From Bryobacterales bacterium (GTDB lineage: Bacteria; Acidobacteriota; Terriglobia; Bryobacterales; Bryobacteraceae): 64,000 nucleotides of DNA. Location: the NCBI GenBank assembly GCA_019261985.1, contig JAFAQY010000023.1:1-64000 (forward strand), read 5' to 3'. Under the pieces are notes generated by a model that worked only from the letters and a program-made list of their open reading frames with translations, did no database searches and was not told the DNA's origin. A program made the position numbers and the translations under genes. Shown one piece after another: positions 5,786-46,461 of this stretch. The stretch's first letter is position 1, and every line of letters starts with the position of its first letter.

Positions 5786-5848
5786 GGTGGAGCAGGGGTC
5801 AGCTGACCGGGGCTGAAGCCCTGGTTGCAGGCTAAAGCCCGCTCCACC
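5786..5848. repeat. Family B compound palindrome, copy 1 (short form)
   Basis: A 63-bp element between rpsQ and rplN. It opens with GGTGGAGCAGG, contains an inner hairpin GGGGCTGAAGCCCTGG, and closes with GCAGGCTAAAGCCCGCTCCACC. The outer arms pair with each other. It lacks part of the left inner hairpin seen in the 88-91-bp copies. The rplN Shine-Dalgarno (AGGAG) lies just beyond it. Confidence 0.85.
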
Positions 5849-7503: not shown

Positions 7504-7593
7504 GGTGGAGCAGGCTTCAGCCTGTAACGGCGGCTTTAGCCGACGCTCTGACCTGGGCTGAAGCCCAGGTTGCAAGCTAAAGCTTGCTCCACC
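7504..7593. repeat. Family B compound palindrome, copy 2
   Basis: A 90-bp element between rpsN and rpsH. GGTGGAGCAGGCTTCAGCC forms the left arm with its own hairpin. Inner hairpins CGGCGGCTTTAGCCG and CTGGGCTGAAGCCCAG follow. The right arm ends GCTTGCTCCACC. It leaves enough space for the rpsH Shine-Dalgarno GGAGG. Confidence 0.88.
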
Positions 7594-9693: not shown

Positions 9694-10130
9694 ATCTCAG
9701 TCAATTGAAACCGCCCCCTGGGCAAAAGCATAAGAAGCAGCGCATCGGCCAAGGCATGGGCACAGGCCGCGGCAAATATTCCGGCCGCGGAGCCAAGGGC
9801 GCAAAGTCCATTTCAGGCTACTCGCGTATGCGCGGCTTTGAAGGCGGCCAGATGCCGCTGCACCGCCGCTTGCCGAAACGCGGATTTACCAATATCTTCA
9901 AGAAAGAGTATGCGATCTTGAACATTGGTAAGCTGGAAACGCTTGAAGGGGACAACTTCGAGCCGGCGAACCTTCTGGAACTGGGCGTCATCCGTAAACT
10001 CAAGGACGGCTTAAAGGTCCTCGGCACAGGCGAATTGAAGCGTAAGATTGTAGTAAAGGCTCACGTGTTCTCCGAGTCGGCCCGCAAAAAGATTGAGACA
10101 GCCGGCGGGACGGCTGAAGTCATTCAGTAG
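9690..10130 (+). CDS. rplO: 50S ribosomal protein L15
   Basis: A 146-residue L15 with the glycine-rich start [44 protein letters not shown] and the C-terminal [19 protein letters not shown]. It is a late 50S protein. The stop codon (10128-10130, TAG) is the first element of the six-unit palindrome array that separates it from secY. Confidence 0.97.
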
Positions 10131-10304
10131 GAGAAGCTTCAGCTTGTCCACTGAGGCTGGGACAAGGTTCAGCTTGTTCACTGAGGCTGGGACAAGCTTC
10201 AGCTTGTCCTACTGAGGCTGGGACAAGCTTCAGCTTGTTCACTGAAGCTGGGACAAGGTTCAGCTTGTTCACTGAGGCTGGGACAAGCTGAAGCTTGTCC
10301 TACT
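10128..10304. repeat. Six-unit tandem array of family A palindromes between rplO and secY
   Basis: Six units of 30-31 bp start at about 10130, 10160, 10190, 10221, 10251 and 10281. Each holds a palindrome of the type GGACAAGCTTCAGCTTGTCC followed by the linker ACTGAGGCTG. Units 2 and 5 share the variant GGACAAGGTT; units 2, 4 and 5 share TTGTTC. The sixth unit ends directly in the secY Shine-Dalgarno GAGAGGA. There are no unique spacers, so this is not a CRISPR array. Transcribed RNA could form up to six consecutive stems. Confidence 0.93.
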
Positions 10305-10314
10305 GAGAGGAATT

Positions 10315-11721: not shown

Positions 11722-11811
11722 GGTGGAGCAGGCGTTAGCCTGCAACCTGGGCTTCAGCCCAGGCCAATGCGGGAGCTGACGCTCCCGTTGCAGGCTAAAG
11801 CCTGCTCCACC
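11722..11811. repeat. Family B compound palindrome, copy 3
   Basis: A 90-bp element between secY and adk. The left arm is GGTGGAGCAGGCGTTAGCC. Inner hairpins are CCTGGGCTTCAGCCCAGG and CGGGAGCTGACGCTCCCG. The right arm is GCAGGCTAAAGCCTGCTCCACC. It ends only eight bases before the adk ATG. Confidence 0.9.
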
Positions 11812-12497: not shown

Positions 12498-13264
12498 TTG
12501 TGCGGAAGAATATGGCCGAGCTTGAAAAAATGCGCGCCGCCGGTCTGTTGGTTTGGAAGATTTTGGAAAATTTGAAGCGAATGGTCGCGGAAGGCGTTTC
12601 AACCTACGATTTGGAAGTGACGGCCGAGAAAATGATGCAGGATGCGGGCGCGCGGCCGGCGTTTAAGGGCTACAAATCGCCCGCGGCGGAAACGAAGTTT
12701 CCGTTTGTGCTGTGTACTTCGGTGAACGACGAAATCGTGCATGGGATGCCTTCGCACAAGCGCATCTTGAAGCCCGGCGATATCGTTTCGATCGATACGG
12801 GCGTGCAGTTGAGCGGGTATTACGGCGACTCCGCTGTTACTGTTGGAATTGGGGAGATTTCTCCCGAGGCGCAGCGCTTGATGGACGTAACCCGCGAGTC
12901 GCTGGAAATGGCGATTGAAAAGGCGCGGGCGGGTAACCGGCTTTTCGATATTTGCGGCACGGTGGAGCGGCACGTAACCGCCAACGGATTTTCGATCGTC
13001 CGCGAATTCGTGGGGCATGGGATCGGAACGCAGATGCATGAAGAGCCGCAGATTCCGAATTACGTGGACCGCCGCGGCGAAAATCCGCGGTTGAAGGAAG
13101 GCATGGTGCTCGCGATCGAGCCGATGGTCAACGCCGGTAAGCCGGGCGCGAGAGTTAAGCCGGACAAGTGGACGGCTGTCACCGAAGATGGAAGGTATTC
13201 GGCTCATTTCGAGCACACGGTCGCAATCACCGCCAACGGGCCGTGGGTATTGACGAGGCCTTAG
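12494..13264 (+). CDS. map: Methionine aminopeptidase, type I
   Basis: Removes the initiator Met from new proteins. The 256-residue protein is of typical type I length. Metal ligands are visible in the usual order: Asp in IDTGVQLSGYYGDSAVT (two ligands), His in EFVGHGIGTQMHEEP, Glu in LAIEPMVN, and Glu in FEHTVAIT. It overlaps adk, and its TAG stop (13262-13264) runs into a family B element exactly where infA would normally follow. Confidence 0.97.
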   Translation: MIVRKNMAELEKMRAAGLLVWKILENLKRMVAEGVSTYDLEVTAEKMMQDAGARPAFKGYKSPAAETKFPFVLCTSVNDEIVHGMPSHKRILKPGDIVSIDTGVQLSGYYGDSAVTVGIGEISPEAQRLMDVTRESLEMAIEKARAGNRLFDICGTVERHVTANGFSIVREFVGHGIGTQMHEEPQIPNYVDRRGENPRLKEGMVLAIEPMVNAGKPGARVKPDKWTAVTEDGRYSAHFEHTVAITANGPWVLTRP

Positions 13265-13351
13265 GTGGGGCGGGCTTCAGCCTGCGGCGGGCTTTAGCCC
13301 GCCACGGTGACGGCGGGACTGAAGTCCCGCGCAGGCTGAAGCCTGCCCCAC
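13264..13351. repeat. Family B compound palindrome, copy 4, in the usual infA position
   Basis: An 88-bp element that begins at the last base of the map stop codon. Outer arms are GGTGGGGCGGGCTTCAGCC and GCAGGCTGAAGCCTGCCCCAC; inner hairpins are GGCGGGCTTTAGCCCGCC and CGGGACTGAAGTCCCG. It fills most of the 108-bp map-rpmJ gap. Confidence 0.9.
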
Positions 13352-13372
13352 AATGAAGGAAGTTGAGGATTT

Positions 13373-19971: not shown

Positions 19972-20129
19972 GGCAAAACGCCACCCTGCGCGCGATTGCC
20001 AATCGCGCTGGGCGGGATTGTTCGAAACCGCCGAGGCGGATTGGGGCCGGGGGTTGGCAACCCGACCTACTGTCTGAAACCGGCCAGGCGGATTGGCAAT
20101 CGGCCGCGGGTTTGGCAACCCGCCCCACT
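19969..20129. repeat. Family C compound palindrome region, copy 1
   Basis: This 160-bp gap starts in the MFS stop codon (TAGGGC) and holds nested inverted repeats: GCGATTGCCAATCGC, GGGGGTTGGCAACCCG, GATTGGCAATC and CGGGTTTGGCAACCCG. It ends in CGCCCCAC. The cores differ from family B but the layout (several hairpins between stop codon and next promoter) is the same. Confidence 0.7.
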
Positions 20130-38678: not shown

Positions 38679-41621
38679 GTGCGTGCACTCGTGTTTTTGG
38701 TGTTCGTCGCATCGATCGGCGCAGCCCGTGCGCTAGGGCAGAACACTCCCGATTTTGAAGGTAAGCCCATCACCCGAATCGATTTCGAGCCGCCGTTGTC
38801 AGGCCAGCCGATGCCTGGCCCCGAACTCGACCGAAGAATGGCTCTTCAAATCGGAGCGCCGTTGCGCATGGTGGATGTGCGCGATGCGATCGAGCAGCTT
38901 TACGCGACGGGCCGCTACTCCGACATATCGGTGGACGCGCGCGCCGAAGAAAACGGCGTTGCGCTGCGGGTGGATACGGTATTCAATTACTTCATCAGCG
39001 GCGTGAATATCGAAGGCGAGGCCGACCCTCCCAACCGAGATCAGCTTCGAGCGGCCACGAAACTGGAACTGGGCAGGCTTTTCGGCGGGAATGTCGCGAT
39101 AAATCAGGCCGAGCAAAATATGCAGGAACGGTTACGCGCCAACGGCCTCTACTCGGCCAACATTGAGACCCGTGTGGATCGCACCAATTTAACCGAAGAG
39201 GCGAATATTTTCTTTACCATCGAAACGGGCAAGCGAGCCCGTTTCGGCGGAGTGGAGTTCCTCGGCGAGACCGAGCTCTCTACATCCAAGTTGATCCGCC
39301 GCACCGGCTGGCATCGCGGTTTGGCTTTTGTCGTCTTGCCCGGGTGGCGCGAATTCACGCAAAGCCGCCTGCAATCCGGAATCGGCCGGGTGCAGTCGAC
39401 CATCCAACGCGGTGACCACTGGCAGGCGCGGGTCACGCTGGAGGAGCTTCAATTCCATCCGGAAACGAATCGCGTAACACCGGTCCTGCGCATCGATAAC
39501 GGACCCGTCCTTACAGTAACGACCACCGGACTCAAGCTCTCCGCCGGGAAATTGCACGATCTTGTGCCGATCTATCAGGAACGCACTAGCGATCGCGGCT
39601 TGCTTTTAGAGGGAGAGCGCAGCCTCCGCAATTACTTCCAATCGCAAGGATATTTCGATGCCTCGGTCGAAGTCTCCGATCACCTGGAGGACAACCGTAC
39701 GGCCGTAAATTACGATATCGTGCGCGGCCTGCGCCATAAACTGGTAAAAATCCAAATCACTGGCAACCGTTACTTCGATACTCCAACCCTGCGCGAACGG
39801 CTATCCATGGCGCCGGCGGAATTCCCGCGCTACCGCTGGGGAAAGTTTTCACAGCGCCTGATGGATCAGGATAAAAACTCGATTGAATATCTGTACCGCT
39901 CCAACGGATTTCGCGATGCTGAGGTGATGATTCCGCGGCCCGTGGACAATTACAACGGCAAGACCGGCGATCTTGAAGTGGAGATCCAGGTCAACGAAGG
40001 CGTGCAATGGCTGGTTCATTCGCTCGATTTCCGGGGAGTGCCCGAGGGCGATATCGAGCGTTTCCGGCCAATTTTGCAATCCATTCCGGGTCAGCCGTTC
40101 AGCGACGCTGCTGTCGCGGCCGACCGGGATACAATCCTGACCTACTACTATAACAACGGCTATTCGGATGCCACCTTCGACTGGACCGAAATGCCCGGCG
40201 CGTCGCCCAACGAGGTGGACCTCACGTTCGTCGTCGCGCTGGGAAGACAGCAAGTCGTCCGCAACGTTCTGGTCCGAGGATTACAAACGACCAGACCTGG
40301 TATTGTCGCCAATAGGATTTCGCTCATTCCCGGCGGCCCAATGGCGCAGAACGAAATTATCCAGAGCCAGCAGAAGCTCTATGACCTTCGCGTTTTCTCC
40401 AAGGTTGAGACGGCGCTGCAAAACCCGGATGGCGAAGAAGACAGCAAATACGTGCTATTCCATCTGGACGAAGCTAGCCGTTACTCGTTTAACGCCGGCT
40501 TCGGCGCGCAACTCGGCCGCATAGGCGGGGGAACCACTACCCTCAGCGATCCCGCCGGTACCGCTAGTTTTAGCCCGCGCGTCTCACTTGGTGTGAGCCG
40601 GCTGAATACATTCGGACTGGGGCATACCGTGGGCCTGCAAACGCTTTTATCGACCATCGAACAGCGGGTTTTGCTGACCTACCTGGTCCCGCAATTTCAA
40701 GGCAACGACAATTTCTCGCTGAGTGTTTCCGGCCTGCTCGACGATTCCAACGATATCCGTACGTTCACTGCCCACCGGCTGGAAGCGTCCATACAGCTTG
40801 CGCAGCGCCTCAGCCGCGCGAACACGATTCAATATCGCTACACATACCGGCACGTAACTATTCCCGAGGATACGCTGAAAATCTCGCCGGAGCTGATCCC
40901 GCTGTTTTCGCAGCCGGATCTCACGGGCAGCCTGTCTTTTTCCTTCATTCAGGATAGGCGCGACGATCCCGCTAACTCAACCCGGGGATTTCTCAACACC
41001 ATCGATTTCGGTTTCGCTGGAAGCAAACTGGGATCAGAGACGGATTTCACCCGCTTGCAACTGCGTAACTCGACCTACACGCGAATCGGCCGCGACCTCG
41101 TTTTTGCGCGCACGACTACCTTCGGCTACATCCAGAGATTGGGCGGCGTGCCTGGAATCCCCCTAGCCGAGCGTTTCTTTTCCGGCGGCGCCACTACCAA
41201 TCGCGCCTTTCCCGAAAATCAGGCCGGCCCGCGCGACCTGGAAACCGGATTTCCTCTCGGCGGAAACGCATTTTTGTTTAACTCGCTGGAGTTGCGGTTT
41301 CCGCTGATCGGAGATAATGTCGGCGGCGTCCTTTTTCATGACATGGGCAATGTCTACTCCGATGTCAACAGTATTAGTCTGCGATTCCGGCAAATTAACA
41401 ATCAGGATTTTAATTACGCAGTGCATGGATTCGGCTTCGGAATCCGCTATCGCACACCGATCGGTCCCATTCGCGTGGACTTCAGCCTAAGCCCGAATTC
41501 GCCTCGGTTCGTAGGCTATTCGGGCACGCTGGACCAACTTCTGGCGGGAACGGGAACCCCCAACGTACCCCAGCGCATCAACACGTTTCAATTTCATTTC
41601 TCGCTGGGGCAGACGTTTTGA
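38679..41621 (+). CDS. Omp85-family outer membrane protein, TamA/BamA-like, with many POTRA domains
   Basis: A 980-residue outer-membrane protein: signal peptide (1-21), then roughly 600 residues of repeated POTRA-type units (for example RMVDVRDAIEQLYATGRYSDI, LFGGNVAINQAEQNMQERLRANGLYSANIE split, ERSLRNYFQSQGYFDASVEV, LMDQDKNSIEYLYRSNGFRDAEV, AADRDTILTYYYNNGYSDAT), and a C-terminal 16-strand barrel from about 640. The barrel has the SFIQDRRDDPANSTRGF and FFSGGATTNRAF motifs and ends in Phe, the Bam targeting signal. The neighbouring TamB-like gene argues for a TamA-like role. GTG start. Confidence 0.9.
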   Translation: MRALVFLVFVASIGAARALGQNTPDFEGKPITRIDFEPPLSGQPMPGPELDRRMALQIGAPLRMVDVRDAIEQLYATGRYSDISVDARAEENGVALRVDTVFNYFISGVNIEGEADPPNRDQLRAATKLELGRLFGGNVAINQAEQNMQERLRANGLYSANIETRVDRTNLTEEANIFFTIETGKRARFGGVEFLGETELSTSKLIRRTGWHRGLAFVVLPGWREFTQSRLQSGIGRVQSTIQRGDHWQARVTLEELQFHPETNRVTPVLRIDNGPVLTVTTTGLKLSAGKLHDLVPIYQERTSDRGLLLEGERSLRNYFQSQGYFDASVEVSDHLEDNRTAVNYDIVRGLRHKLVKIQITGNRYFDTPTLRERLSMAPAEFPRYRWGKFSQRLMDQDKNSIEYLYRSNGFRDAEVMIPRPVDNYNGKTGDLEVEIQVNEGVQWLVHSLDFRGVPEGDIERFRPILQSIPGQPFSDAAVAADRDTILTYYYNNGYSDATFDWTEMPGASPNEVDLTFVVALGRQQVVRNVLVRGLQTTRPGIVANRISLIPGGPMAQNEIIQSQQKLYDLRVFSKVETALQNPDGEEDSKYVLFHLDEASRYSFNAGFGAQLGRIGGGTTTLSDPAGTASFSPRVSLGVSRLNTFGLGHTVGLQTLLSTIEQRVLLTYLVPQFQGNDNFSLSVSGLLDDSNDIRTFTAHRLEASIQLAQRLSRANTIQYRYTYRHVTIPEDTLKISPELIPLFSQPDLTGSLSFSFIQDRRDDPANSTRGFLNTIDFGFAGSKLGSETDFTRLQLRNSTYTRIGRDLVFARTTTFGYIQRLGGVPGIPLAERFFSGGATTNRAFPENQAGPRDLETGFPLGGNAFLFNSLELRFPLIGDNVGGVLFHDMGNVYSDVNSISLRFRQINNQDFNYAVHGFGFGIRYRTPIGPIRVDFSLSPNSPRFVGYSGTLDQLLAGTGTPNVPQRINTFQFHFSLGQTF

Positions 41622-42253
41622 CTTGGGCGCTGTTGTGCACCTGCGCAGTCGCTAGCGCATATGGCGAGGTAATCGACCGCATTGCCGTCACCCTGGACAG
41701 GCAAGTGATTACGGAAAGCGATTTGATTCTCGATCTGCGGGTGGATGCGTTTATCGATCGGAAACCTGTGGATTTGAGCGTTGCCGCGCGGCGCCAAGCC
41801 GCCGAACGGCTGGTCGATCAGATCCTGATGTTTCGGGAAGCGGCGGATAGCCATCTGGATCTGAGCATGCCGGAGGATGGGCCCATGCTGATTGCGCAGG
41901 AAAAATCGCAGTTTCCGAGTGATGACGAATACCGCAACACGCTCGCCGAGTATCGCATTCGCGAATCCGAGCTACAGGAACATCTGCTGAATGGCTTGCG
42001 GGCATTGCGCTTCGCGAATCTGCGCTTCAGCCCTGAAGTGCAAATCTCGGAGGGGGATCTGCGCGAGTATTACGATAAACTCGCGGCGAGCTGGCGCACA
42101 GCGGGCCGTTCTCCCATCCCGAGTTTCGCGGACAGCCGGGATCAAGTCGAAAAGCTGCTAACGCAGGAGCGAACGATGGAGTCGCTGGATGCATGGCTCT
42201 CCACGCAGCGGCAATCGAAGCAGATTCAGTACCGGGAGGCCGCCTTCAAATGA
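41618..42253 (+). CDS. SurA-N-terminal-like periplasmic chaperone without a complete parvulin domain
   Basis: A 211-residue protein starting with TTG inside the previous stop codon (TTGA). A signal peptide (LLCTCAVASAYG) precedes the SurA N-terminal pattern VIDRIAVTLDRQVITESDLILDLRVDAFI split and RRQAAERLVDQILMFREA. The remaining helices (ESELQEHLLNGLRALRFANLRF, QISEGDLREYYDKLA) match the SurA helical core; no PpiC domain is present. It is sandwiched and translationally coupled between the Omp85 and TamB-like genes, so it probably assists the same envelope machine. Confidence 0.78.
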   Translation: MTWALLCTCAVASAYGEVIDRIAVTLDRQVITESDLILDLRVDAFIDRKPVDLSVAARRQAAERLVDQILMFREAADSHLDLSMPEDGPMLIAQEKSQFPSDDEYRNTLAEYRIRESELQEHLLNGLRALRFANLRFSPEVQISEGDLREYYDKLAASWRTAGRSPIPSFADSRDQVEKLLTQERTMESLDAWLSTQRQSKQIQYREAAFK

Positions 42254-45200
42254 ACACCGACGGTGGAGCAGGCTTTGGCCTGCAACGGAGCCTTCAGCCT
42301 CCGCGGAGGCCGGGATTAAAGTCCCAGTTGCGGGGTAAAGCCCGCTCCACCGCTGCAATTCTTGTTCGCATCGCCGCGGCCATTTTGGTTCTTGCCCTCA
42401 TCACCGTTCTCGCCGCTTTCATCGTCGTGCAAAGCGGATGGTTCCACGAATACGTCCGCGCCCGAATCATCGCCGAACTTGAGCGTTCCACCGGCGGACG
42501 CGTCGAATTAGGGCGATTTTCTTTCCGCGGAGCCACCCTGACTGCCCAGGTCGCGCCATTAATTCTGCACGGGAAAGAGACGGCGGGCGAGCCACCGCTG
42601 CTGCGCATCGAGAACACCGCTCTTCAGATGCGCGTGATTTCGATAGTAGAACGAAAGATCGACCTTGCGTTCCTGCGTCTCGAAAAACCGCAAGTCCGAA
42701 TCGTGACTTACCCGGACGGATCCACTAACCTGCCCAGTCCCCGTGACCATCAAAGAAACTGGGCCGAACAACTCCTCGATCTCGGCGTCCGCCGTTATGA
42801 ATTGTTGGACGGGCAATTCCAATATGACGATCGCAAGGCGGCGCTCAATCTTCAGGGCGAAGGCCTTCAATTACGCATGCGCTACGAAGCGAAAATACCG
42901 GCCTACCAGGTTGAGTTTGACTCGTCGCGGGTACGTCTGCTGCCTGCTACGCTTGCGCCCGTCGAGACTGGGGTCTCCGCGCGCTTTGCCATCGAGCGCA
43001 CGCGCATTGCGTTTTCCCAAATTCGTTTATCTTCCAAGCAAGCGCGCGCCGACCTTACCGGCGAGCTTCGGGATTTCGAGCGGCCGAAGGGCTCGTTCAC
43101 GGTAAAAGCGAGCGCTCCGGTGCGCGATCTGGTGCAGTTGTTCTCAGTCCCTCTTGAACCTGTAGGATCGGCGGCATTCGACGGCCGAATCGAGTTCGCC
43201 TTGGACGAAAAAGTTACTTACGCAGCCAGAGGACGCGTGAACGCGCGCGGGCTCGCCTATTCGCACGATCGCCTCAAGATAGAAGGAGCCAATGGCCGCG
43301 CCGATATGCAGCTCGGCCCCGCGCAAATTGCGCTCACCGATGTAGATGCGACCGCGTTAGGCGCACATTTCGTCGGATCGGCGTCATTACGAAACTGGTC
43401 GAAGTTCGAGGCGACAGGAACGATCGATGGGCTGACGATCGCGGAGACCGCTCGTCTGGCAACCGACCGGCAGATGCCTTGGAACGGGATTCTGGCCGGC
43501 GATGTTTCCGCAAAGGCAACACTGGGTCAAAATGACGCGAATGCACGCGTAAACTTCGCCATCGCTCCCTTCGGATCAAATCCCATCGCCGGCCGCATTA
43601 ATGCAAGCTTCGATCAAAGCACGGGAGCGCTCACCCTGAACTCTTCCTATGCGGCGACCGCCGCCACGCGGCTGGATGTTTCGGGCACGCTCGATAAAAC
43701 CATTCAGGTTCAGTTCCGTTCCACCGACCTCAATGATGTGTTGCCGGCGCTTGCGCTGGCCGATCCGCAAGCTTCTCAACGGCAAATTCCTCTGGAGTTG
43801 ACAAACGGCCTAGCCACTGCATCAGGCTCTGTCTCCGGTCGGCTTGAGAATCCGCAATTCCAGGGACAGGTCAGCGTGACGAACGGCATCGTAGACGGTC
43901 ACGCCTTCGATCGCTTCACCGCTACCGTAAACGCAACCAAAACCAGCGTTGCTGCGTCGCGTTTCACACTCGCGCGCAGGATGACGGATGTCTCCGGAAA
44001 CGCGACTATAACCGCCCGCCAGGGGAGTTTTGACGATGCCGCCGTCAGCGGCCAGGCAACGGTCCGCAATGCCGATATTCAAGAGCTCGCAAGAGAAGCC
44101 GGCAGCACGATTGAGGTGAGCGGCACTGCCAACGTCACGGTCCGCGTGAGTGGTTCCGTACACACGCCGCAGGCCGCGATCGCACTGGACGTTCAGAAAC
44201 CCGGCGCGTTCGGCGAGCAGTTGGACCGGCTGCGCGCGAACGTACAGGTCGCGCCGGATTGGATCGAAGTCTCGCGCGGTGACGCGGAGGACGGTCCCGG
44301 CCACCTCCGTTTTTCCGGCAATTACCGCCGGTCCGGGCCCAATTGGAGAACCGGCGATGCCCAAGTTCAACTTACGGCGCAGAACCTGCCGGCCACTCGC
44401 GTGGAGGCACTGAAGAAAATGGCGCCGCGGTTCGACGCACAGCTTAACGCCGATCTTCAGGGCCGTATGCACGTTTCGAATGGCGCTTATTCGCTGGCAT
44501 CGGCGGATGGCAATGCGTCGGCGCAGAAAATTACTCTGGATAAACAACCTCTCGGCGAGGTCTCGCTCACCGGCAGCACCGCGGGAACCAACGTTGCGGT
44601 CACTGCGACAGGCAAAGTCCGCGATATTGCCTTCAACAGTCAGGGATCATGGCGGCTGGACGGCGACGAACCGGGCAGCGCCAACATTCAGTTCACCCGC
44701 GCCACGATTGAGTCTTTGCACAAACTGGCGATGTTGGCGGGGACGGCGCCCGCCACGGACCAAAGTGAGCTGCCCTTCCAAGGCTTCGTCGAAGGTCACG
44801 CCATCCTGTCACTTGCACTTCTGCATCCGCAGGATTTCCGGGCCGAGGTTACTTTGGATGCGGTTCAGCTTAATCCGAAAGCGGATCAGACATTGAAGCT
44901 CGGCGTGCAAGTGCAGGACGTGACTGTCAGAAATACTCAGCCGGTCATCGTGGACGTGAACTCCCGCGAGGCGCGAGTTCGCTCGGCTCAATTCATTGCT
45001 CGCGATACTGACATTCAAGCGACCGGCGCAATCCCGTTCGCCGCGGGCGCGGGCGCCGATCTCGCATTGCGAGGTTCGATAAACCTGATCGTTCTCCAGC
45101 TCCTTAATCCCAACCTGCTTGCAACCGGCAACGCGACCGTTCAAGCCTCGCTGCGAGGAAGCTTGTCCGACCCGATGCTGAATGGGCGCATGGAGCTGAA

Positions 45201-46341
45201 GGGCGCTTCCCTCTATTTGAGCGATTTTCCAACCGGCGTAGACAATGCGAACGGGGTTGTGCTGTTCGACCGCAACCGCGCGACAATCGAAAGCCTCACC
45301 GCGCAAGCCGGTGGAGGAACGATTGCGTTTACCGGGTTTCTGGGATTCGGCCAGGAACTTATATACCGCCTGCAAGCCGACGCGAAGCAGGTTCGCGTGC
45401 GCTATCCCGAGGATTTAAGCGATACCTTTAGCGCGCAACTTGCGCTGAATGGAACATCGAATGCCAGCACACTTTCGGGCACGCTCACGATCGATCGTAC
45501 GGTGATTAATCCGCGGGCGGACTTAGGCCAGCTTTTAGCCGCGGCTGTGGGGCCGAGCCCGACAAGCGCCGATAACGCGTACTTACGCGGATTACAGTTC
45601 AATGTCCACATCGAGAGCTCGGCGGGTTTTCAGCTCGAAACGTCGCTTGCGCAGGATGTGGAGGCGAACGTGGATCTGAGACTTCGCGGCACGCCCGCGC
45701 GTCCCATCTTACTCGGAAGCATCGGGGTGGATCAGGGCGACATTCAAGTGTTCGGCAGCAAATACACTGTCGACCGGGGCGAGATTCGGTTTTTAAATCC
45801 GGTAAAGCTCGAACCTACTCTGGATGTGCAGCTTGAAACCAAGGCCCGTGGAATCGCCGTAACGGTAAGCTTCACCGGCACGATGCAACGCATGAACGTC
45901 AGCTACAGCTCCGACCCGCCTCTGCAACAATCCGAGATCATCGCATTGTTGGCCGTGGGCCGCGATCCCAACTCGCTAGGAGCGCTTTCGTCCGCGCAAA
46001 GTTCCAGCTCATCGTCGGGCTTCACCGTTGCCGGGGGCGGCCTGCTCAGCCAAGCGCTATCGGATCAACTTTCAAGCCGCTTCCAGCGATTCTTCGGGGC
46101 CAGCAAAGTGAAAATCGATCCGACGATCACCGGCGTGGATTACCTCCCTCAAGCCCGCCTCACTCTGGAGCAGCAGGTCTCAAAGGACATCACCTTCACC
46201 TACATCACCAACTTGAACCGCACGCAGGAACAGATCGTGCGCCTGGAATGGAATTTCGACAAGAATTGGTCCGCCGTGGCCGTTCGCGATGCAAACGGGC
46301 TGTTTGGCATCGATTTCCAGTACAAAAGACGATTCCGATAG
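42250..46341 (+). CDS. TamB-like translocation/lipid-transport protein with repeat-encoded N-terminus
   Basis: A 1363-residue inner-membrane-anchored periplasmic protein. One transmembrane helix (residues 35-60, ILVRIAAAILVLALITVLAA) is followed by a very long beta-rich AsmA-like/taco-fold body and a C-terminal DUF490/TamB domain (VDQGDIQVFGSKYTVDRGEIRFLNPVKLEPTLDVQ split, PPLQQSEIIALLAVGRDP). The ATG overlaps the upstream stop (ATGA). Codons 5-34 (42262-42351) are exactly one family B element read in frame. TamB spans the periplasm and moves phospholipids or assists outer-membrane assembly with an Omp85 partner, here the gene two places upstream. Confidence 0.9.
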   Translation: MNTDGGAGFGLQRSLQPPRRPGLKSQLRGKARSTAAILVRIAAAILVLALITVLAAFIVVQSGWFHEYVRARIIAELERSTGGRVELGRFSFRGATLTAQVAPLILHGKETAGEPPLLRIENTALQMRVISIVERKIDLAFLRLEKPQVRIVTYPDGSTNLPSPRDHQRNWAEQLLDLGVRRYELLDGQFQYDDRKAALNLQGEGLQLRMRYEAKIPAYQVEFDSSRVRLLPATLAPVETGVSARFAIERTRIAFSQIRLSSKQARADLTGELRDFERPKGSFTVKASAPVRDLVQLFSVPLEPVGSAAFDGRIEFALDEKVTYAARGRVNARGLAYSHDRLKIEGANGRADMQLGPAQIALTDVDATALGAHFVGSASLRNWSKFEATGTIDGLTIAETARLATDRQMPWNGILAGDVSAKATLGQNDANARVNFAIAPFGSNPIAGRINASFDQSTGALTLNSSYAATAATRLDVSGTLDKTIQVQFRSTDLNDVLPALALADPQASQRQIPLELTNGLATASGSVSGRLENPQFQGQVSVTNGIVDGHAFDRFTATVNATKTSVAASRFTLARRMTDVSGNATITARQGSFDDAAVSGQATVRNADIQELAREAGSTIEVSGTANVTVRVSGSVHTPQAAIALDVQKPGAFGEQLDRLRANVQVAPDWIEVSRGDAEDGPGHLRFSGNYRRSGPNWRTGDAQVQLTAQNLPATRVEALKKMAPRFDAQLNADLQGRMHVSNGAYSLASADGNASAQKITLDKQPLGEVSLTGSTAGTNVAVTATGKVRDIAFNSQGSWRLDGDEPGSANIQFTRATIESLHKLAMLAGTAPATDQSELPFQGFVEGHAILSLALLHPQDFRAEVTLDAVQLNPKADQTLKLGVQVQDVTVRNTQPVIVDVNSREARVRSAQFIARDTDIQATGAIPFAAGAGADLALRGSINLIVLQLLNPNLLATGNATVQASLRGSLSDPMLNGRMELKGASLYLSDFPTGVDNANGVVLFDRNRATIESLTAQAGGGTIAFTGFLGFGQELIYRLQADAKQVRVRYPEDLSDTFSAQLALNGTSNASTLSGTLTIDRTVINPRADLGQLLAAAVGPSPTSADNAYLRGLQFNVHIESSAGFQLETSLAQDVEANVDLRLRGTPARPILLGSIGVDQGDIQVFGSKYTVDRGEIRFLNPVKLEPTLDVQLETKARGIAVTVSFTGTMQRMNVSYSSDPPLQQSEIIALLAVGRDPNSLGALSSAQSSSSSSGFTVAGGGLLSQALSDQLSSRFQRFFGASKVKIDPTITGVDYLPQARLTLEQQVSKDITFTYITNLNRTQEQIVRLEWNFDKNWSAVAVRDANGLFGIDFQYKRRFR
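42262..42351. repeat. Family B compound palindrome, copy inside the tamB-like coding region
   Basis: A 90-bp element with GGTGGAGCAGGCTTTGGCC left arm, inner hairpins GGAGCCTTCAGCCTCC and CGGGATTAAAGTCCC, and CGGGGTAAAGCCCGCTCCACC right arm. 90 bp is 30 codons, so the reading frame is preserved. It is translated as a basic, low-complexity stretch (GAGFGLQRSLQPPRR, then LKSQLRGKARST) on the cytoplasmic side of the membrane anchor. Confidence 0.92.
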
Positions 46342-46353
46342 GTTCCCTTGAAA

Positions 46354-46461
46354 GTGGGGCAGGTTGCCAACCTGCAGCGGGTTGCCAACCCGCTTGCCGA
46401 CCCCTCAACCAACCCCGCCCAGCGCGGTTGGCAACCGCGCGCCGGATGGCATCGGCCCCAC
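46354..46461. repeat. Family C compound palindrome, copy 3
   Basis: A 108-bp element between convergent tamB-like and pheT genes. Outer arms GTGGGGC and GCCCCAC pair. Inner hairpins are GCAGGTTGCCAACCTGC, GCGGGTTGCCAACCCGC and CGCGGTTGGCAACCGCG. The arms match those of family B copy 4, which links the two families. Confidence 0.85.

Follow-up and report, generated by a model that had tools for sequence, protein, structure and literature searches.

The tamB gene in the window (the whole stretch of 64,000 nucleotides that was analysed) carries a 90-bp palindromic element as codons 5-34 of its reading frame. We consider that the whole is best explained by a MITE-like insertion into tamB that is read through from the ATG, as one case of a tolerated recurrence in export signals, and put the probability of this reading at roughly 0.78. 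The locus contains the following features:

41618-42253, plus strand: SurA-like ORF of 211 aa, named by context and not by a family search
42234-42239, plus strand: GGGAGG, a Shine-Dalgarno (SD)-like site 10 nt 5' of the ATG, duplex energy -10.3 kcal/mol (background -2.9 +/- 2.5)
42250-42253, plus strand: ATGA, where the TamB start overlaps the SurA stop, an overlap kept in most relatives
42250-46341, plus strand: TamB gene, 1363 aa, Pfam TamB with E=2.1e-46 at residues 1015-1362
42262-42351, plus strand: palindromic element of 90 bp (family B) that forms TamB codons 5-34 and encodes GGAGFGLQRSLQPPRRPGLKSQLRGKARST
42328-42330, plus strand: in-frame TTG in the element (3' part of the hairpin), a rival start with a weak SD (-4.1)
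42352-42429, plus strand: N-terminal membrane anchor AAILVRIAAAILVLALITVLAAFIVV, immediately 3' of the element

The original prediction placed an element of exactly 90 bp at codons 5-34, right after the stop-overlapping ATG, and by sequence the frame is exact. The ATG (42250-42252) is followed by AAC ACC GAC as codons 2-4, the element as codons 5-34, and GCT GCA ATT, with which the anchor starts; the protein reads MNTD, the element, then AAILVRIAAAILVLALITVL. The element is one complete copy with the 5' end GGTGGAGC and the 3' end GCTCCACC. Its 30 encoded residues include 7 K/R and no D/E, in agreement with the positively charged tail that had been predicted before the anchor. Both the Pfam TamB C-terminal domain and the N-terminal anchor are present in the host protein. 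In the proposed course of events, a MITE-like palindromic element from a RAYT/TIRYT-type transposon would have inserted four codons past the tamB start, and the gene would have stayed readable because the element is 90 bp in length and has no stop in that frame. Translation most likely still begins at the old ATG and passes through the element, a strong mRNA hairpin, and the product would be the envelope protein TamB, extended by a basic cytoplasmic tail of 30 residues ahead of its anchor.

Homologues of the SurA-like ORF were found upstream of TamB in relatives, and in most of them the TamB start overlaps the SurA stop with no intergenic space in between. The alignment to same-genus TamB homologues started only at query residue 25-39 in 18 of 21 cases. 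The distance from the start to SGWF was 35 codons in 14 of the 21 (range 32-53; for G021, G006, G008 and G017 the codons were counted on translations by eye) compared with 65 here, although these relatives are distant (~50% aa identity in TamB) and no near-identical empty site is found among them. The value of 65 is exactly 35+30, and taking out 30 codons gives 35 again with the ATGA overlap retained; this agreement is suggestive and not unique, as the tails of relatives vary from 32 to 53 codons. Extra length is apparently tolerated at this N-terminus, because some relatives have longer tails. The proposed comparison showed that same-genus TamB lacks the 30 residues but retains the flanking sequence and the ATGA overlap, and on this basis the 30-codon insertion is real, precise and lineage-specific. 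Chance or artefact, either an assembly error or a spurious ORF across an intergenic repeat, has to be weighed, since the genome is a draft of 138 contigs and palindromes can cause assembly errors. We regard it as highly improbable in view of the 1363-codon ORF with its Pfam TamB match, the missing SurA-TamB intergenic space in most relatives, and the same arrangement in eight hosts.

The tamB element matched 50 places/strands in the home genome at E<=1e-3, with full-length copies ~77% identical, and a covariance model built from 17 copies gave 116 matches on both strands, at ~69 places. Four further copies lie in the window:

5786-5848, plus strand: partial copy, by sequence match and covariance model
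7504-7593, plus strand: full 90-bp copy; the downstream gene starts after it
11722-11811, minus strand: full 90-bp copy, by sequence match and covariance model
13264-13352, minus strand: variant copy, by covariance model

The two full copies align with the tamB element across 90 bp. The aligned copies share a common plan of GGTGGAGCAGGCTTCAGCCTGCAAC, a variable hairpin, a variable spacer, a second variable hairpin and GTTGCAGGCTAAAGCCTGCTCCACC. The element matched no family in an Rfam scan of the window at the gathering threshold, a GTAG or CGTC tag was absent from the repeat ends, and the flanks of the copies held no conserved target-site motif save a terminal G. An asymmetric subfamily in the home genome ends in GTGGAGCACG / GTGGAGCGGG and has recurrent flanks (ATCAG, GCATCC), possibly a target preference. 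Two other kinds of repeat were noted in the window: a tandem array of a different palindromic unit (GGACAAGCTTCAGCTTGTCC type) at 10130-10307, single relatives of which lie near 2312, 14291 and 22377, and a distinct inverted-repeat family (GCGATTGCCAATCGC type) at 19980-20025 and 46405-46450, the latter copy lying directly past the TamB gene.

The tamB copy folded alone at -58 kcal/mol; with its flanks the local fold reached -72.8 kcal/mol (z -3.9), and the stem begins 12 nt past the A of the ATG. This position, and the pairing maintained among copies in the variable hairpins, would suit a hairpin retained for start-proximal translational control with an incidental peptide, which is compatible with translation through the element. 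We think such a role unlikely, as the structure is intrinsic to copies generally, intergenic ones included, so that a local function is not needed, and the hosts share no regulatory theme.

The TamB copy turned out to have company. When the copies of the home genome were read in both directions, at least eight N-terminal in-frame copies were found, and in the seven hosts other than TamB the element begins 1-14 codons past the ATG. Coding score and start calls were home-made and not those of a gene finder; host family names are from Pfam, except that the pilin-like and hydrolase-like proteins had no Pfam hit and were named by eye. The other hosts are:

C119:16529: SCO1/SenC protein, MNLRGHGD, element, ILLLTAVAAFAGG; the relative reads MNLRRISTLLALATLPLAAQ
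C136:61589: SCO paralogue (SCO1/SenC), in-frame N-terminal element
C128:20821: pilin-like protein with a prepilin leader, MTP, element, GERGFALLLIF; the relative reads MTRPAHRDERGFALLIIF
C53:43689: metallo-hydrolase-like protein, in-frame N-terminal element
C58:9462: phosphodiesterase-family protein, lipoprotein by its LTGC motif, in-frame N-terminal element
C58:11546: phosphodiesterase-family protein, element inside the signal peptide
C118:30347: DUF885 protein, in-frame N-terminal element, strong SD (-12.3)

The frame is open through the element up to the upstream ATG in all 8 hosts, a nearby later start is mostly missing, and the ATG overlaps a TGA as ATGA in 6 of them. Genes that merely lie 3' of a copy are closed by element stops and generally have their own start just past the copy; in non-coding copies, only 7% of frames combine an open reading with an ATG no more than 15 codons away. 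A length divisible by three, which had been proposed to make the copy tolerable, did not mark the coding copies: this holds for 18 of 57 non-coding copies as well, and by model boundaries it fails for several coding ones. A hydrophobic core follows within 20 aa of the element in 7 of 8 hosts (baseline 39%, P=0.0075), and in six of the seven other hosts the element is directly followed by such a core, belonging to a signal peptide, a lipoprotein signal or a prepilin leader. The insert was absent from the checked orthologues of the SCO, DUF885, hydrolase-like, pilin-like and phosphodiesterase proteins; in-frame insertion in unrelated genes with absence from orthologues shows most clearly in TamB, SCO and the pilin-like gene. 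The same insertion event would have happened at least seven more times in the home genome, mostly in N-terminal export signals.

A half element at C52:4581 is a probable ninth in-frame case. Four candidates were rejected as coding, three with a plausible start past the element (C96:54022, C87:10855, C110:112872) and one with a start just beyond its edge (C35:7563). Copies were also seen away from N-termini: at the C-terminus of an HlyD-family membrane-fusion protein (C87:17978-18074), apparently in frame within the HATPase domain of a histidine kinase (C88:8072-8160), and, as a half element, apparently internal to a synthetase-like protein (C11:9365). Among 42 copies examined in four other genomes with the element (G002, G013, G018, G020), there were no in-frame N-terminal cases. 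A Fisher test of the home genome against these four gave a marginal p=0.049 with totals entered as 71/40 instead of 69/42, and no claim is based on it. In a profile search with the SCO alignment, the best matches were from Bryobacteraceae/Bryobacterales, Acidobacteriota. A MAG titled Bordetella parapertussis (CALQCC020000001.1) is probably mislabelled: its SCO gene shares 58% identity with the query and resembles the Bryobacteraceae matches.

The TTG at 42328 had been named as the start that would overturn translation of the whole element. In that case the element would be a mostly untranslated 5' leader giving TamB only the eight residues MRGKARST. The codon is indeed in frame and leaves 39 codons to SGWF, near the 35 of relatives; an in-frame TTG recurs close to the right end of the element in several hosts and, used as the start, would leave an n-region of normal length (MRGKARST or MQAKACST, then the core). 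Moreover, many N-terminal REPs in ORFs have been judged probably untranslated, the start being downstream (PMC3733652). For SCO the SD at the ATG is weak (-2.9), and in the hydrolase-like gene the SD of the TTG (-11.6) rivals that of the ATG (-10.4). In tamB, however, the ATG combines a strong SD with the stop-start overlap, while the SD of the TTG is weak against a background of -2.9 +/- 2.5 kcal/mol and the codon lies within the -58 kcal/mol hairpin element. Furthermore, the open frame and ATG are kept in 8/8 hosts against 7% of the frames of non-coding copies, and near the right end of the element no TTG occurs in the pilin-like host or in C58:11546. We judge the downstream start quite improbable, and translation from the tamB ATG is strongly supported by these sequence features.

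The native residues N-terminal to the element contain no K/R in TamB, the pilin-like protein, the hydrolase-like protein and the DUF885 protein, while all 43 listed n-regions of relatives (lists typed by hand) have at least one. This agrees with the element having taken over the charge role, in which case it would now supply all n-region positive charge in these four hosts. Were the TTG the start, K/R-free beginnings such as MNTD, MTP, MT and MSN could also reflect codons that decayed because they are not translated. A stronger version holds that a transposase-associated palindrome repeatedly donates n-regions and that its translated product came to serve as the positively charged targeting segment in several exported or membrane proteins that are unrelated to one another, all within one lineage, their native charges being lost; we hold this only tentatively, with the odds somewhat against it. 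Tolerance accounts for the location more simply: selection may tolerate inserts in export signals because the extra residues are cleaved with the leader or remain cytoplasmic.

Five Y1_Tnp matches above the Pfam cut-off were found in the home genome. One of these genes (C52:10493-11068) is flanked by the left half and the right half of the element, which are 95% identical as inverted repeats. By eye from its translation, the HUH motif appears as HVH in VISNHVHVLIRP and the catalytic tyrosine as Y in AESYDRW. In a second species (G019, C199:747-1307), a 66% identical transposase is likewise flanked by element halves. The 90-bp units are best interpreted as relics, non-autonomous and MITE-like, of a RAYT/TIRYT (HUH tyrosine) transposon, and the C52 transposase may have mobilised them. 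Of the claim that an intergenic repeat had brought about protein innovation, the insertion stands; the repeat appears to be a mobile-element relic and not just an intergenic repeat, and the insert may be tolerated without being of benefit, adaptive innovation being at most a possibility.

In-frame palindromes have precedents. Rickettsia palindromic elements (RPE; Ogata, Claverie and co-workers) lie in frame in many unrelated genes and add tens of residues (PMC3733652), N-terminal RPE-1 proteins were reported to be expressed in vivo (PMC3733652), and intragenic REPs are known in several bacteria (PMC3733652). Like RPE, the present element is a short palindromic repeat with many copies, in frame in unrelated genes; unlike RPE, it differs in sequence and phylum, its copies cluster immediately ahead of export or membrane signals, and its halves flank a tyrosine transposase gene. 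TIRtrons have been described, including an acidobacterial TIRYT transposase group (PMC3733652). The palindromic ends flanking a Y1_Tnp HUH gene and the scattered non-autonomous copies resemble the REP/REPtron/TIRtron systems (RAYT or TIRYT), whereas the present unit is 90 bp long with four hairpins and GGTGGAGC...GCTCCACC ends and has no GTAG/CGTC tag. In being short, having terminal inverted repeats and apparently deriving by internal deletion, it resembles prokaryotic MITEs, but its ends are associated with an HUH transposase. Among the papers searched, no direct precedent turned up for palindromes or MITEs lying in frame within signal peptides. While in-frame palindromes are already known, their concentration in export signals, with the repeat as the sole source of positive n-region charge in four hosts, looks like a new form of the pattern.

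The home cell, a soil acidobacterium, probably makes proteins whose targeting tails derive from 'junk' DNA. The hosts, at least eight genes in one genome, form a compact and testable set for studying how proteins can take up mobile DNA without being inactivated, and export signals are indicated as a permissive refuge for such DNA. If the element does supply n-region charge, as several hosts suggest, this would be a concrete exaptation of a bacterial palindrome.
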